This document shows positions 1 to 32,140 of a DNA stretch of 32,483 bases, piece by piece. The DNA comes from Allobrachymonas sp. GTDB lineage: Bacteria; Pseudomonadota; Gammaproteobacteria; Burkholderiales; Burkholderiaceae_C. Position 1 is the first letter of the stretch. Each line of letters opens with the position of its first letter. The notes beneath the pieces were generated by a model. It saw only the letters and a program-made list of their open reading frames with translations. It was not told the DNA's origin and did not search any database. Location of the stretch: NCBI GenBank assembly GCA_030529505.1, contig JAUMWT010000026.1:1-32483 (forward strand). Direction: 5' to 3'. The translations under genes were made by a program, and so were the position numbers.

Positions 1-524
1 CTTGGCGCGGCCCGAGACAGACAGGGGCGCAACGCATGCAGCACCTTCTTGATCGGGACGCGCAGAGCGTGAAGAACACGGACACGGCCTCTCAAAAGGG
101 CTATGACGCCGGCAAGAAAGTTTCTGGCATCAAGCGTCACATCGCGGTGGATACTCAGGGCTTGCCGCATGCCATTGCGGTGAGCACGGCCAACGTCACC
201 GACCGTAAGGGAGCGCTACAGGCACTGCAGCGCTGCAAACACCGATTGAAGCGGGTACAAAGCCTGCTGTGTGACAGTGGCTATGTGGGCAAGCCCTTTG
301 CACAGGGCGTACAGGACATTCTGGGCGAGCACGTCAAGGTGCAGATAGCCAAGCGCAGTGAGTTGCACACGTTCAAGGTGATGCCCAAGCGCTGGATTGT
401 TGAGCGCAGCTTTGCCTGGCTGGAGAAGAACAGAAGGCTGTGGAAGAACTGCGAGAGGCTGCTGAACACCAGCTTGCAGTTCATCCACCTCGCTTTTCTG
501 GCTCTTGTCCTCAAAAGATCGTGA
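1..524 (+). pseudogene. IS5-family DDE transposase, C-terminal part, probably frameshifted
   Basis: The open frame from 36 to 524 gives 162 residues typical of the C-terminal half of IS427-group transposases. Blocks visible are DAQSVKNTDTAS with the first catalytic Asp, the GYDAGKKVSGIKRHIAVDT stretch, LLCDSGYVGKPF with a second Asp, and WIVERSFAWLEKNRRLWKNCER with the catalytic Glu. Just upstream the family normally reads PSL(I/L)VDAQSVKN. Here the matching peptide (...HAAPS) is in frame 2 up to position 49 and DAQSVKN is in frame 3, as if two bases were lost between about 47 and 57. The ATG at 36 is therefore probably not a true start. The gene is cut by the window edge, so it cannot be shown whether other full copies are active. 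Confidence 0.7.
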
Positions 525-533
525 ACAGGTTTT
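1..533 (+). mobile_element. IS5-family (IS427-like) insertion sequence, 3' portion
   Basis: The window opens inside an insertion sequence whose transposase is read on the plus strand. The right end lies just after the transposase stop: the stop codon at 522-524 falls inside the terminal sequence GATCGTGAACAGGT (517-530). The same 14-mer ends the small repeat element at 29965-29978. The left end lies outside the window. Family placement rests on the transposase sequence. The exact right boundary and target duplication cannot be fixed from one end. Confidence 0.75.
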
Positions 534-1890: not shown

Positions 1891-2617
1891 GCCCTGCTTG
1901 TGCCCGCCGCAGTGGCTAGCCACTGCGGCTTGCTGGCCAGCACGCGGGCGTACACGGGGCAGTCGGGCGCATGTGCGCCGGGCAGGTAGCCGCAGCTCAT
2001 CAAAAATTCCTTGATGATTTCACCGCCGATGAATTTGAACGGCTGTTGCTTGAAGGCCTTGATCCACGCCGCTAAGTCGCGCGGGTGCTGCGCATCCAGC
2101 CAGGCTTTGAAGCTGCCGTACTCGTTTTGCAGGCGGCGGATTTGCCGGGCGTTGTGAATGGCGGCGTTGATTTTCAGGCGGTTGCGCACAATGCCTGCGT
2201 CGGCCAGCAGGCGGGCGCGGTCGGCCTCGCCATAGGCGGCCACCTGGGCGATGTCAAAGCCGCTGTACGCGATGCGGAAGTTGTCTTGCTTTTTCAACAT
2301 CAATGTCCAGTTCAGAACCTGATCTCAACGTGAGGCGATGGGAAATGGAGCGGGATGGGATGCAAGGCGCAAATCGCAGTGCATAGCCCGTGCTATGGAC
2401 AAGATTTGCAACGAAGCAGACCGCCCGCCTCCATTTGCAAGCGCCCGTGAGGAGATTTCGAACAGGTTCTTGGGCCCGCCTGATTGATCTCGAGCAGCAG
2501 GCGGCCAAACAGGGCGTTGTTGTCAGCCAGCGCAAAGCCGTACACGTGGTCGTGGTAATGCTTGTTTGGGTCGGCCGTGTCGGGCGGCAGGGCGTTGGCA
2601 AAGGTGCAGTAGTTCAT
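1887..2617 (-). pseudogene. tag: DNA-3-methyladenine glycosylase I (Tag), split by a repeat element
   Basis: The N-terminal piece starts at ATG 2617 and reads MNYCTFANALPP...HYHDHVYG...LLLEINQAG. The C-terminal piece begins L-N-W-T-L-M-L-K-K-Q-D-N and continues to HAPDCPVY near the end. Joining them restores the family core ...LEINQAG/LNWTLMLKKQDNFR... with the Cys near residue 4, His 22 and the C-terminal H-x3-C as zinc ligands, and the Glu of LEINQAG at the catalytic position. Tag excises 3-methyladenine from alkylated DNA. Between the halves lies a roughly 160-bp inverted-repeat element (2313-2473) with stops in the reading frame, so no full enzyme can be made. The start overlaps the TfoX-like gene stop (ATGA). 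Confidence 0.88.
2313..2473 (-). mobile_element. MITE-like element inserted in tag
   Basis: Read on the minus strand this begins AAGAACCTGTTCGAAATCTCC and ends near CTCAACGTTGAGATCAGGTTCT-like sequence; it aligns along its whole length with the copy at 29814-29981. The shared core includes GGGCGGTCTGCT, the hairpin arms GCAAATC/GATTTGC and CATAGC/GCTATG, and CGCCTTGCATCCCATCCC. The end at 2313-2330 lacks about six bases (GTTCAC) of the terminal repeat. It carries no gene of its own. A target duplication could not be defined. Confidence 0.85.
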
Positions 2618-11017: not shown

Positions 11018-11052
11018 GCGCCTCGCGTTGAGGTCGTGAACAGGTTCTTGGG
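11018..11052 (+). mobile_element. end fragment of the MITE-like element
   Basis: The sequence CGCCTCGCGTTGAGGTCGTG followed by AACAGGTTCTTGG matches the last 29 bases of the copy at 29814-29981 with one mismatch. The rest of the element is missing. It lies ten bases downstream of the leuA stop codon. Confidence 0.75.
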
Positions 11053-12804: not shown

Positions 12805-13059
12805 ACAAAAAAATCAGGGGATGAGGGAGGTTTTTGCCTGCCAACAAAAAATTTTGCCAGCCGGAGTGCTGCCTTGCTACCGGACCGTGTGCGGACCTGG
12901 GGTGCATGGCTTTTTGACGCAAATGAGGGGCTTTGAGCAAGGCGCTGTTGGCTCGATAGGGCAGGGCGGCTGTTGGCCCTTGCCGAATGGGCGTTTGCTT
13001 GCAGCACACCCAAAGTTTTTTGAATGAGGCGCCAGCAAAAAAGCGATGCGGCAAGGAGC

Positions 13060-13196
13060 GAGGGGGCGTTCTGCGGCGTTGCCAATCTTGTTCATAGCAC
13101 AGGCCATGCACTTCGCTCATGTATTCGATGTGCGCCTCGCATCCCATCTGGTTCCTTGTCCATGCGCATCACGATGAGATGGCGAACAGCTTCTGA
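13060..13196 (+). mobile_element. degenerate copy of the MITE-like element
   Basis: The segment reads GGCGTT...GCCAATCTTGTTCATAGCAC, AGGCCATGCACTTCGCTCAT, TGCGCCTCGCATCCCATCTGG and ends ATGGCGAACAGCTTCTGA. These follow the order of the intact element, with many changes. It shares CAGGCCATGCACTTCG with the copy at 28145-28337, marking an older subfamily. It fills most of the gene-free stretch between the leuA leader and rsmB; I see nothing else there. Confidence 0.65.
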
Positions 13197-27530: not shown

Positions 27531-28144
27531 GTCACTGTAAGAGAGTTTAACCCGATTAAAAACTTATTGGTATATCAAACACTTGGATTCGATACTTCAA
27601 TTGCCCACTAAATTGTAAAAAAGCGAGAACAGGAGCTTGCACAAATCTGAATCGGGTCGAAATCCAGTGCAAACAGTGATTTTGTAACTTTCAAGAAACA
27701 GGTGTTGGGGCAACTTTTTGCCGTTCTTCCATTTCACGAAGCATGCTTTGGGCGGGGCAAGGCATGTGTTGCGCGGCAGGTTGTGATCGGCATGGCACGA
27801 TCCGTTCATTCATATGCTGCTGTGGCGCTGCCGTGCTTGGGCCGAAAGCAGAAAAAGCAAAAACCGTACCAAGGCTGCCAAAAGAATGTGTCTGGAATGA
27901 GCATGTGCCATGCCAATGGCCTGTTGCACATGGGGGCGGCAACAGGCTGGTGGCTGAATCTTTGTGTACGGCGTGTGGGGCGTGTTCGTGGCGCTGGTGC
28001 AAACCACTGGCGCTGTACCGCTTGTGTTGCGCGTGTTTATTCAAAGGCGCAAGCTTGCGGCGTTGCAAGCAGCCATTGAATGCTTGTAGAAAATGTGTGT
28101 CAGGCCGTCGTGCTTGCGCTTTGTATGCGGTCTTCAACCCTTTG
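27531..28144. other. gene-free stretch upstream of pbpG
   Basis: About 600 bases without a convincing gene. The first 80 bases are AT-rich and probably hold the pbpG promoter on the minus strand, but no clear box pair stands out. The remainder has only short frames of unnatural composition, one of them rich in Cys. A repeat element follows at 28145. Confidence 0.5.
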
Positions 28145-28337
28145 GAGCCTGTGTTCAATACCTTCTCACGGGCGTTTGAACGACGGAGGCGGGCAGTCTG
28201 CTTTGTTGCAGATCTTGTCAATCATCTTGCACATGTCGCACAGGCCATGCACTTCGCCATGCACAAAGATGGGTGCCTTGTTATCCCGTCCCTCTCCATC
28301 TCTTATCACCTTGCGTTGAGATTTTGAACAGGTTCTT
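28145..28337 (+). mobile_element. divergent full-length copy of the MITE-like element
   Basis: It begins GAGCCTGTGTTCAATACC and ends GAGATTTTGAACAGGTTCTT, with the internal order CTCACGGGCGTTTGAACG, GGCGGGCAGTCTGCTTTGTTG, CAGGCCATGCACTTCG, ATCCCGTCCC and CACCTTGCGTTGAG. At about 193 bases it is longer than the intact copies, with extra bases in the middle hairpin. It lies about 125 bases downstream of the etfA stop. Confidence 0.75.
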
Positions 28338-28462: not shown

Positions 28463-29395
28463 TCACAGCGCCTGGGTCAGCTCGGGCAGGGCGCTTTCCA
28501 GGTCGGCCTCCAGGAAGTAATCGGCCACGCTGGCAATGGGGGCTTCGGGGTCTTTGTTGATGGCGACGATGACTTTGCTGTCTTTCATGCCGGCCAGATG
28601 CTGAATGGCGCCGCTGATGCCGCAGGCGATGTACAGATCGGGGGCCACGACCTTGCCCGTTTGCCCCACCTGCAAGGCGTTGGGGGCGTAGCCCGCATCC
28701 ACGGCGGCACGGCTTGCGCCGATGGCGGCATTGAGCTTGTCAGCCAGCGGCGTGATCAGTGCATGGAAGGCTTCGGCGCTGCCCAGGCCGCGGCCGCCAG
28801 ATACCACCACGCGCGCGGCGGTGAGCTCCGGCCGGTCGGATTTGGCTTCTTCTCGGCTGACGAAGGCCGAGCAACCCGCATCGGCCACTGCCGCCACGTT
28901 TTCGATGGCAGCGGCGCCACTCGTGGCGGCCGCGGCATCGAAACTGGTGGTGCGCACGGTCAGCACCAGGATGGCGTCGCTGCTTTGCACGGTGGCAAAG
29001 GCATTGCCAGCATAGATGGGACGCTCGAAGGTGTTGGGGTTGACGATGCGCGTGATTTCGCTGATCTGCGCCACGTCCAGCTTGGCGGCAACGCGGGGCG
29101 CGGTGTTTTTGCCGCAAGCCGTGGCAGCAAACACGATGTGGCTGTAAGCGGGCGCCAGGGCCAGCACCTGGGCGGCCAGATTTTCGGCCAGTGCTTCGGC
29201 CAGCGCCGGGCCATCGGCGTGCAGCACTTTCGCCACGCCAGCCACTTGGGCGGCGGCTTGGGCCACGGCTGCGGCCTGGTGGCCTGCCACCAGCACGTGC
29301 ACCTCCCCCCCGCATTGCGCAGCGGCCGTGATGGCATGGCGTGTGGCGGGCAGCAGCTGCTGGTTGTCGTGTTCGGCAATGAGCAAAGCCGTCAT
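28463..29395 (-). CDS. etfA: electron transfer flavoprotein alpha subunit
   Basis: The 310-residue protein has the usual EtfA layout. The N-terminal part reads MTALLIAEHDNQQLLPATRHAI. The C-terminal FAD domain has VVSGGRGLGSAEAF, GYAPNALQVGQTGKVVAPDLYIACGISGAIQHLAGMKDSKVIVAINKDPEAPI. With EtfB it passes electrons from acyl-CoA and other dehydrogenases to ETF-quinone oxidoreductase. A ribosome site (TTGGAGAA) precedes ATG 29395. etfB, normally directly upstream, is not in this window, and the gene is bracketed by two same-orientation repeat elements. Confidence 0.95.
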   Translation of the reverse strand: MTALLIAEHDNQQLLPATRHAITAAAQCGGEVHVLVAGHQAAAVAQAAAQVAGVAKVLHADGPALAEALAENLAAQVLALAPAYSHIVFAATACGKNTAPRVAAKLDVAQISEITRIVNPNTFERPIYAGNAFATVQSSDAILVLTVRTTSFDAAAATSGAAAIENVAAVADAGCSAFVSREEAKSDRPELTAARVVVSGGRGLGSAEAFHALITPLADKLNAAIGASRAAVDAGYAPNALQVGQTGKVVAPDLYIACGISGAIQHLAGMKDSKVIVAINKDPEAPIASVADYFLEADLESALPELTQAL

Positions 29396-29709
29396 GGCGG
29401 TTCTCCAAAACAATGCGGTGCAAGTGGCTGGGGCAAGGCCCTGCCGCCCGTGGGTGGTTCAGGTACGGGCGATGTCGTCATGTGTGAGGCGGCGGCTGTG
29501 CCTGCGGGTGCGAGGCATGCGCTGTGCGCCTCTTTCAATGCGAGTCGGCTCCAAGCGGTGCGGGCCGGGCGTAAACCGAGCGTAAAGGCAAACGGCGATT
29601 ATGGCTGATGTGTGGCTCCTTGCCAGAGCCCATGCTGGCTGGATGGGGCCCCTTGGCGGGTACGGACTTGGCTTGAAGCCGGACGCTGATCAGGCTGCCA
29701 GCAGGCCGA

Positions 29710-29737: not shown

Positions 29738-29813
29738 GAAAATCTGGCAAGCATTTCACAAGTCATGACATAACGGCATGGCCGTGAATTGATTTGATTC
29801 AACGAGGACTCTC

Positions 29814-29981
29814 AGAGCCTGTTCACAATCTCCTCACGGGCGCTTGAATACGGAGTCCGGGCGGTCTGCTGCGTTGCAAATCTCGTCCATAGCACGGGCT
29901 ATGCCTTATGCCCTTCGATTTGCGCCTTGCATCCCATCCCCCCTATCCAATCGCCTCGCGTTGAGATCGTGAACAGGTCCT
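29814..29981 (+). mobile_element. intact MITE-like element upstream of the BCCT gene
   Basis: The ends AGAGCCTGTTCACAATCTC (29814-29832) and GAGATCGTGAACAGGTCCT (29963-29981) are inverted repeats matching at 17 of 19 positions. The middle can fold through GCAAATC/GATTTGC and CATAGC/GCTATG. The right end holds GATCGTGAACAGGT, identical to the end of the insertion sequence at 517-530. It has no gene of its own. It is inserted 17 bases before the BCCT start codon. Confidence 0.88.
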
Positions 29982-29998
29982 TAAAGAAAGGAAAGCAT

Positions 29999-32098: not shown

Positions 32099-32140
32099 GA
32101 ACCTGTTCAACGCTCCCCTGCGGGCGCTTTGAACAGGTTC
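32099..32140. mobile_element. 45-bp derivative of the MITE-like element
   Basis: GAACCTGTTCAA (32099-32110) and TTGAACAGGTTC (32129-32140) form a perfect 12-bp inverted repeat. Between them lies CGCTCCCCTGCGGGCGCT, which matches the left part of the element, so the left 30 or so bases are joined straight to the right end. The next 290 bases, up to the terminator at 32432, hold no gene I can support. Confidence 0.75.

Follow-up and report, generated by a model that had tools for sequence, protein, structure and literature searches.

Copies of a short element recur along the 32,483-nucleotide window (the whole stretch of DNA that we analysed, contig C81 of a 2.39-Mb draft Allobrachymonas genome in 100 contigs, 83.5% complete). 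These elements are MITEs, a known kind; what is new is a common core, a frequently fixed length and changing ends. Our explanation, which we consider probable, is that they are non-autonomous MITEs mobilised by an IS5-family insertion sequence, with an old shared core, swapped ends and a fold selected as a single strand. Under this explanation the segments in the window would be copies of a non-autonomous element of about 161 bp, moved in trans by the transposase of a resident IS and belonging to one old superfamily whose ends would have been replaced in register on changing transposase partners. Selection would favour folding of the minus strand by itself, whether RNA or ssDNA, and within that fold the conserved internal loop would act as a recognition site. 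A bolder version, which we put forward only tentatively, is that of a categorically new mobile unit: a folded RNA or ssDNA, specific to one strand and constant in length, which would persist by refitting its ends to whichever IS5-like transposase is available and whose conserved internal loop would be read by a widespread partner.

The original prediction had named six related segments in the window with common ends and a common middle hairpin. All six hold related sequence, but they are not equivalent, since two are near-complete, two are decayed, one is an end and one a remnant, and the hairpin is absent from 11018-11052 and 32099-32140. The proposed ends, AG(A/G)(A/G)CCTGTTC...GAACAGG(T/C)(T/C)CT, are real except that the outer A...T is part of the target duplication; the corrected element reads GRRCCTGTTC...GAACAGGYYC with TNA on either side. 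CCTGTTC occurs 16 times on both strands of the window, against 2.9 expected from a first-order resampled sequence. We define the plus strand of the elements as the one reading GCGTTG...CGCCTTGCA. The features are as follows.

1..532, plus strand: IS5-family IS, cut by the contig edge, with its right end GAACAGGTTT at 523-532
36..524, plus strand: C-terminal part of the IS transposase (DDE_Tnp_1, 3e-30; NF033580 IS5 family transposase, 149 bits against a cut-off of 110)
2315..2469, minus strand: second near-complete copy, 155 bp, flanks TCA/TTG, one end damaged (core model 76.2 bits)
11018..11052, plus strand: solitary right end, about 31 bp, without core
13060..13196, plus strand: decayed copy, left end unrecognised (core model 32.6 bits at 13054-13163)
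28145..28337, plus strand: decayed copy, missed by the core model
29812..29814, no strand: left target site TCA of the best copy
29815..29980, plus strand: best element copy, 166 bp, ends GAGCCTGTTC / GAACAGGTCC (core model 56.4 bits)
29815..29831, plus strand: left terminal inverted repeat of the best copy, common to the IS end
29863..29882, plus strand: conserved core, left side GGTCTGCTGCGTTGCAAATC (column conservation and sequence)
29887..29903, no strand: inner hairpin CCATAGC...GCTATG, whose stem covaries in relatives
29919..29940, plus strand: conserved core, right side TTTGCGCCTTGCATCCCATCCC (column conservation and sequence)
29964..29980, minus strand: right terminal inverted repeat of the best copy
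29981..29983, no strand: right target site TTA of the best copy
32099..32140, no strand: end-to-end remnant, 42 bp, without core

In the window, matches to the core's covariance model lie at 2339-2436 (76 bits), 29849-29953 (56 bits) and 13054-13163 (33 bits); the model has no match in segment 28145-28337, which a weak one at 28038-28147 (16 bits) merely touches. The target flanks of the best copy, TCA and TTA, form an imperfect duplication, and its middle, taken as the plus strand, folds no better than shuffled sequences. This copy stops 18 bp before an in-frame, likely TTG start (29999) of a BCCT transporter gene, and it may sit in the leader of that gene. Remnants of 44 bp resembling 32099-32140 lie elsewhere in the same genome (L055:276-319 and L062:485-528).

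A search of the window's own genome with the 29814-29981 copy, which the original prediction had proposed as its check, gave at least 44 matches, itself included (40 of 245 candidates scored). The end motif AGNNCCTGTTC matches 363 times genome-wide, as against 10 times for a control pattern (the motif read backwards); because the 363 include IS ends and solitary ends, the corresponding figure of about 180 elements in 2.39 Mb is an upper bound. From among 100 of the 363 end-motif places and the 44 similarity matches we collected own-genome copies, and the stretches fetched, together with the window, yielded a sample of 56 TIR-delimited elements of 140-200 bp. They end sharply at the inverted repeats, as had been foreseen. 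Identical 3-bp flanks surround 38 of the 56, 37 of them of TNA form (mean 10.0 and maximum 19 in 2000 shuffles), and the other 18 are without identical duplication. Short, mostly 155-188 bp, and delimited by terminal inverted repeats, the elements have the build of MITEs; short open frames run through the copies, and a length of about 161 bp suggests that the element carries no transposase or gene of its own.

In the IS copy L024, from the same genome, an element is nested with TCA on either side, and once the element and one TCA are removed the remainder aligns without gaps to an uninterrupted IS, with substitutions present (compared by eye). As to the 29815 locus, of eight genomes from the genus seven align with the adjoining gene 28463-29413 and two, on other contigs, with parts of the transporter gene; none of the eight aligns over the intergenic site. 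The end motifs, the TNA flanks, the resident IS end and the copy nested in an IS identify the elements as MITEs. The earlier reading of a MITE family is thus upheld by sharp ends, TNA duplications, many copies and a resident IS5-family IS that carries this end too.

At least 26 pieces of the genome match that IS, its copy in the window among them (with 40 of 86 candidates scored). It has ends in common with the element copies over about 17 bp, e.g. GAACCTGTTCACGATCT, so that in this genome the element ends match those of an autonomous-type element. IS5-family members use YTAR/CTAG or TNA targets depending on the subgroup. We saw no intact full-length IS copy in the own genome, where several are cut by contig ends; contigs C81, C71, C14, C60, C45, C96 and others start or end within IS5-family IS copies, and assembly breaks therefore probably hide full copies. 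When the element consensus was compared by blastn with two IS copies, the ends matched over 14-17 bp and the rest gave only chance matches of 7-8 bp, so the interior is probably not derived from the resident IS. An origin by internal deletion from this IS is accordingly disfavoured, the interior being unmatched in both copies. At the level of sequence comparison, the core interior has no counterpart in the resident IS.

Outside this genome, the core travels with other ends. A search of 40 genomes, the own one included, gave zero to one match in each of eight same-genus genomes, and matches in other genera mostly span only the middle of the query, about 46-127, where other ends surround the core. 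Scanning named genomes for two core motifs returned at least 116 stretches with 120 matches, mostly from Burkholderiales among the 80 listed. Seven end classes accommodate 94 of the 120 matches; 26 are unclassified, 16 of these lying 70 bp or less from a stretch end, and they include the Kosakonia match L142, which we rejected by eye as a coding coincidence.

End class A: GARC(C/G)TGTT, 38 elements
End class B: GGCAACGCTGAACAAG, 23 elements
End class C: GGGANCCTCTGCAC, 22 elements
End class F: GGAAGCTCTGAACAA, 6 elements
End classes D, E and G: 2, 2 and 1 elements

Classes B, C and F are mutually alike, and A, D, E and G are unlike. Judged by sequence, the core hairpin is thus present in at least six end classes besides the window's, three of these alike. 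Target duplications accompany 15 of 38 class A elements (shuffle maximum 10), 16 of 22 in class C (mean 8.6, maximum 13, with the ends moved in one base) and four of six in class F (maximum 3); the six of 23 in class B equal the shuffle maximum (mean 1.8, maximum 6), and classes D, E and G are too small for such statistics. The target sites of elements with other ends are mostly TA-centred. Several end types coexist in the complete genomes G012 and G023 (by eye), and an element of class A and another of class C from a single uncultured Comamonas genome (the pair L132/L174) have interiors 92% identical and ends 55% identical. Across all pairs, interior identity is 82% within classes and 77% between them.

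Length is held as well. Among the 94 classified elements, 83 measure 140-200 bp and 79 measure 155-166 bp, and 53 of the 83 are exactly 161 bp long; in classes A, B, C, E and F the most frequent layout is 56+53+52. Compensation between the parts was not seen (variance of the total 23.7, sum of the parts 25.2), and we therefore read the constant length as a common layout. No IS copies with ends of classes B-F appeared in a scan of the sampled loci, for which the class A pattern is too loose to be informative, and no transposase came to light for the other end classes. In G012, G013 and G021 all ten exact class B end matches form 161-bp pairs, with no IS-size pair seen, so a partner in trans can be named for the window's own genome only; in G548, 162-bp pairs (counted with the pattern's ends) account for six of the seven matches to class C ends.

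Larger relatives and particular insertion sites accompany these elements. A type with two opposed cores between one pair of ends occurs at L300:17500-17950 and L331:15350-15750, and elements of about 260 bp at L135, L141 and L183 are comparable to it. Another type, of about 280 bp, has the same ends, variant core motifs and a larger interior (L033:468-748 and L080:527-806). In G023, a class B-like element lies within an apparent tRNA sequence of a tRNA array (L082:1440-1660; 13 tRNAs in 3 kb). Core copies at L256, L260 and L265, from genomes of group f51, have similar sequence on one side in several genomes, as if one core copy had been kept at one place in this group; the frame near L265 is presumably FabH-like.

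The core itself is a bulged hairpin; in the consensus, TGC N GCGTTG leads from the outer to the inner stem on the left side, and CGCCTTGCA leads from the inner stem back to the outer one on the right. Its alignment, A1, holds 36 of 113 cores (37 were picked at 80% identity or less, and L196, with a short core, was left out, as was L142). In this diverse set of 36, standard pairs fill 90.4% of the pair cells, and covariation of the stems reaches 0.410; shuffling gives 0.133 (0 of 500), and sliding yields no more than 0.128. Both stems vary, and TGC N GCGTTG and CGCCTTGCA stay constant, an invariance that partly reflects the scan itself, in which GCGTTGCAAA and TTTGCGCCTTGCA were required. Exact motifs are not required by R1, the model made from the A1 cores; in the loci it found that we inspected (five contig-edge loci excluded), AAA/TTT may covary, e.g. 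as CATGG/CCATG, and CGTT and GCCT are kept in most but not all. Within the own genome, 55 copies of 200 bp or less (misjoined pairs and the 280-bp type dropped) show core columns at 1.69-1.73 bits, as against a mean of 1.51 and 1.82 at the ends; the ends were used for selection, and the core entered only via the similarity search behind many of the copies.

The elements show a strand preference. The minus strand (5'-GGGATGCAAGGCGC...GCAACGCNGCAGACC-3') has the lower RNA folding energy in 78 of the 79 elements of 155-166 bp, compared with 74 of 173 flank controls, and in 52 of 55 own-genome copies; with DNA folding parameters it is favoured in all 79. Among 61 loci from the model search, some of the same classes (short-flank, odd-length and unclear-orientation loci excluded), it is favoured in 53 with RNA and 51 with DNA parameters. 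Elements within a class are related, so these counts are not independent. The preference stems from the ends and arms, which by themselves give 76 of 79, and the arms show it best (74 of 79); there is no such asymmetry in the inner stem (45 vs 32), the conserved loop (30 vs 49) or the class A ends (10 vs 9). Deviations from the paired consensus, read on the plus strand, point the same way in all five groups, with 228 A.C against 96 G.T. Isolated mismatches number 140 A.C and 16 G.T in ends and arms and run the opposite way in the inner part (51 G.T, 7 A.C), where the G.T excess is possibly one conserved site. At unpaired sites the mutation skew is opposite to that of the paired deviations, which leads us to reject mutation bias as the sole cause of the asymmetry. 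These folding models suggest that one single strand, ends included, is perhaps selected to fold, and as G.U keeps an RNA fold and breaks a DNA palindrome, we lean towards RNA.

Orientation in the genome showed no significant bias. The plus strand is leading in 21 and lagging in 14 elements (p 0.31; four genomes). This test covered 36 elements, one unassigned, with manually placed arm limits based on ten samples of skew in each genome; its element lists stopped at 10 for G030 and G386 and contained five of six for G143, and G023 and G548 were left out for unclear skew. Gene context, from home-made gene calls, was obtained for 110 of 167 elements, as 59 tandem, 33 convergent and 18 divergent pairs; the remainder had no gene called on one side (25), genes too far away (18) or a position inside a called gene (14). 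Within the tandem pairs, 35 elements lie sense and 24 antisense (p 0.19). With neither bias significant, these tests lend no support to a strand-specific role, which would predict one.

Searches with R1 place the core in 101 of 150 genomes of the family and in 72 of 398 of the phylum (own genome included in both). Strict filters were applied and only part of the candidates scored, so the counts per genome are lower bounds. At E <= 0.01, matches number 60 in a Desulfovibrionaceae MAG, 22 in a Nitrospira MAG and 7 in a Desulfuromonas MAG, where wrong binning is possible, 3 in Alteromonas, 3 in a Pseudomonadales MAG (with the same caveat) and 1 on one Martelella plasmid. Run on 1.2 Mb sampled at even spacing across six genomes, R1 gave nine matches at E < 0.001, none at 0.001-0.05 and seven at 0.05-0.81. 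Two queries of 72,556 plasmid records matched four and two of them.

The common view of MITEs is that they are dead derivatives of a single IS, and an ordinary MITE of this sort, an internal-deletion derivative of the resident IS with meaningless filler inside, would explain the ends common to the IS, the TNA duplications and the high copy number. Against this, the interior resembles neither of the two IS copies it was compared with, it turns up in other genera between other ends, frequently at an identical length, and its core columns in the own copies are nearly as conserved as the ends, so we regard this origin as quite improbable. The conserved core could alternatively be a double-stranded site for an IHF-like protein, as in Correia elements, that aids transposition or expression, the hairpin being just a side effect of the inverted arms. 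The short conserved sequence that flanks a variable stem on either side is in keeping with such a site, and an IHF site is reported for Neisseria MITEs (PMC2229807); the covariation of both inner and outer stems speaks against it, as does the strand preference of ends and arms, which duplex binding does not predict, and we judge it unlikely.

Old common descent presents a different challenge, since asymmetry and loop might simply be inherited from one ancestor and slow to drift in a core without present function, with cores homogenised within each genome by gene conversion. Interiors in the same genome are indeed alike across end classes, and the direction of the asymmetry does not change from class to class. 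Yet the changes in the stems are compensatory, with few broken pairs, the arms of classes D, E and G (five elements) differ while keeping the strand preference, and most of the model-search loci, some of the same classes, agree too; we doubt that descent by itself is the answer. As to an ssDNA element like REP/RAYT or IS200/IS605, in which an HUH transposase reads the bulged hairpin, both the hairpin and the strand preference would suit it, and a comparable GGCG/CGCC stem next to a TT bulge is part of the E. coli REP hairpin. The elements' target duplications and DDE-type terminal inverted repeats, together with the lack of a significant replication-strand bias, make it highly improbable. Elements mobilised by an IS5-family transposase, with a shared core selected to fold, remain our preferred reading.

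If they hold true, the common core, often at one length and across many end types, the covariation and the strand preference would together mean that there are MITEs with a structure under selection, which last longer than the transposases they pair with. This makes it testable what keeps short non-autonomous elements alive in the long term, and it would add a family that we did not find described to the repeat and RNA annotation of Pseudomonadota. Rfam gave no match in the window and only tRNAs in 14 loci; in lax mode, three elements returned matches far below the cut-off, mostly miRNA-like. A literature search with exact 10-base core strings returned one unrelated plant paper, and in the literature within our reach (subscription papers and preprints were mostly outside) we found no published account of a core that MITEs of different ends have in common.

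Among known systems, the IS5 family (NF033580 group) has a resident member whose ends the window elements match; they differ from it in having no transposase and an interior without counterpart in the IS. REP elements are likewise palindromes lying mostly between genes, and they are 20-40 bp long with GTAG or CGTC tags (PMC3733652). The window elements fall outside the REP/RAYT group, being about 161 bp long with DDE-type ends, whereas REPs are without DDE-type terminal inverted repeats. The R0 and R2 repeats of Pseudomonas fluorescens are similarly intergenic and MITE-like, with inverted repeats that also flank resident ISs, and, comparing by description, the portion of that account available to us reports no common core with other ends (PMC2718517). 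Bacterial MITEs such as Correia/NEMIS, RUP, ERIC and Nezha are short, with terminal inverted repeats, target duplications, long hairpins and proposed mobilisation in trans (PMC2229807, PMC3733652), and our elements resemble them in these traits. What sets them apart, as far as those descriptions go, is that each such family has its own ends, whereas here one core, often at one length, is found with many ends across genera and phyla.
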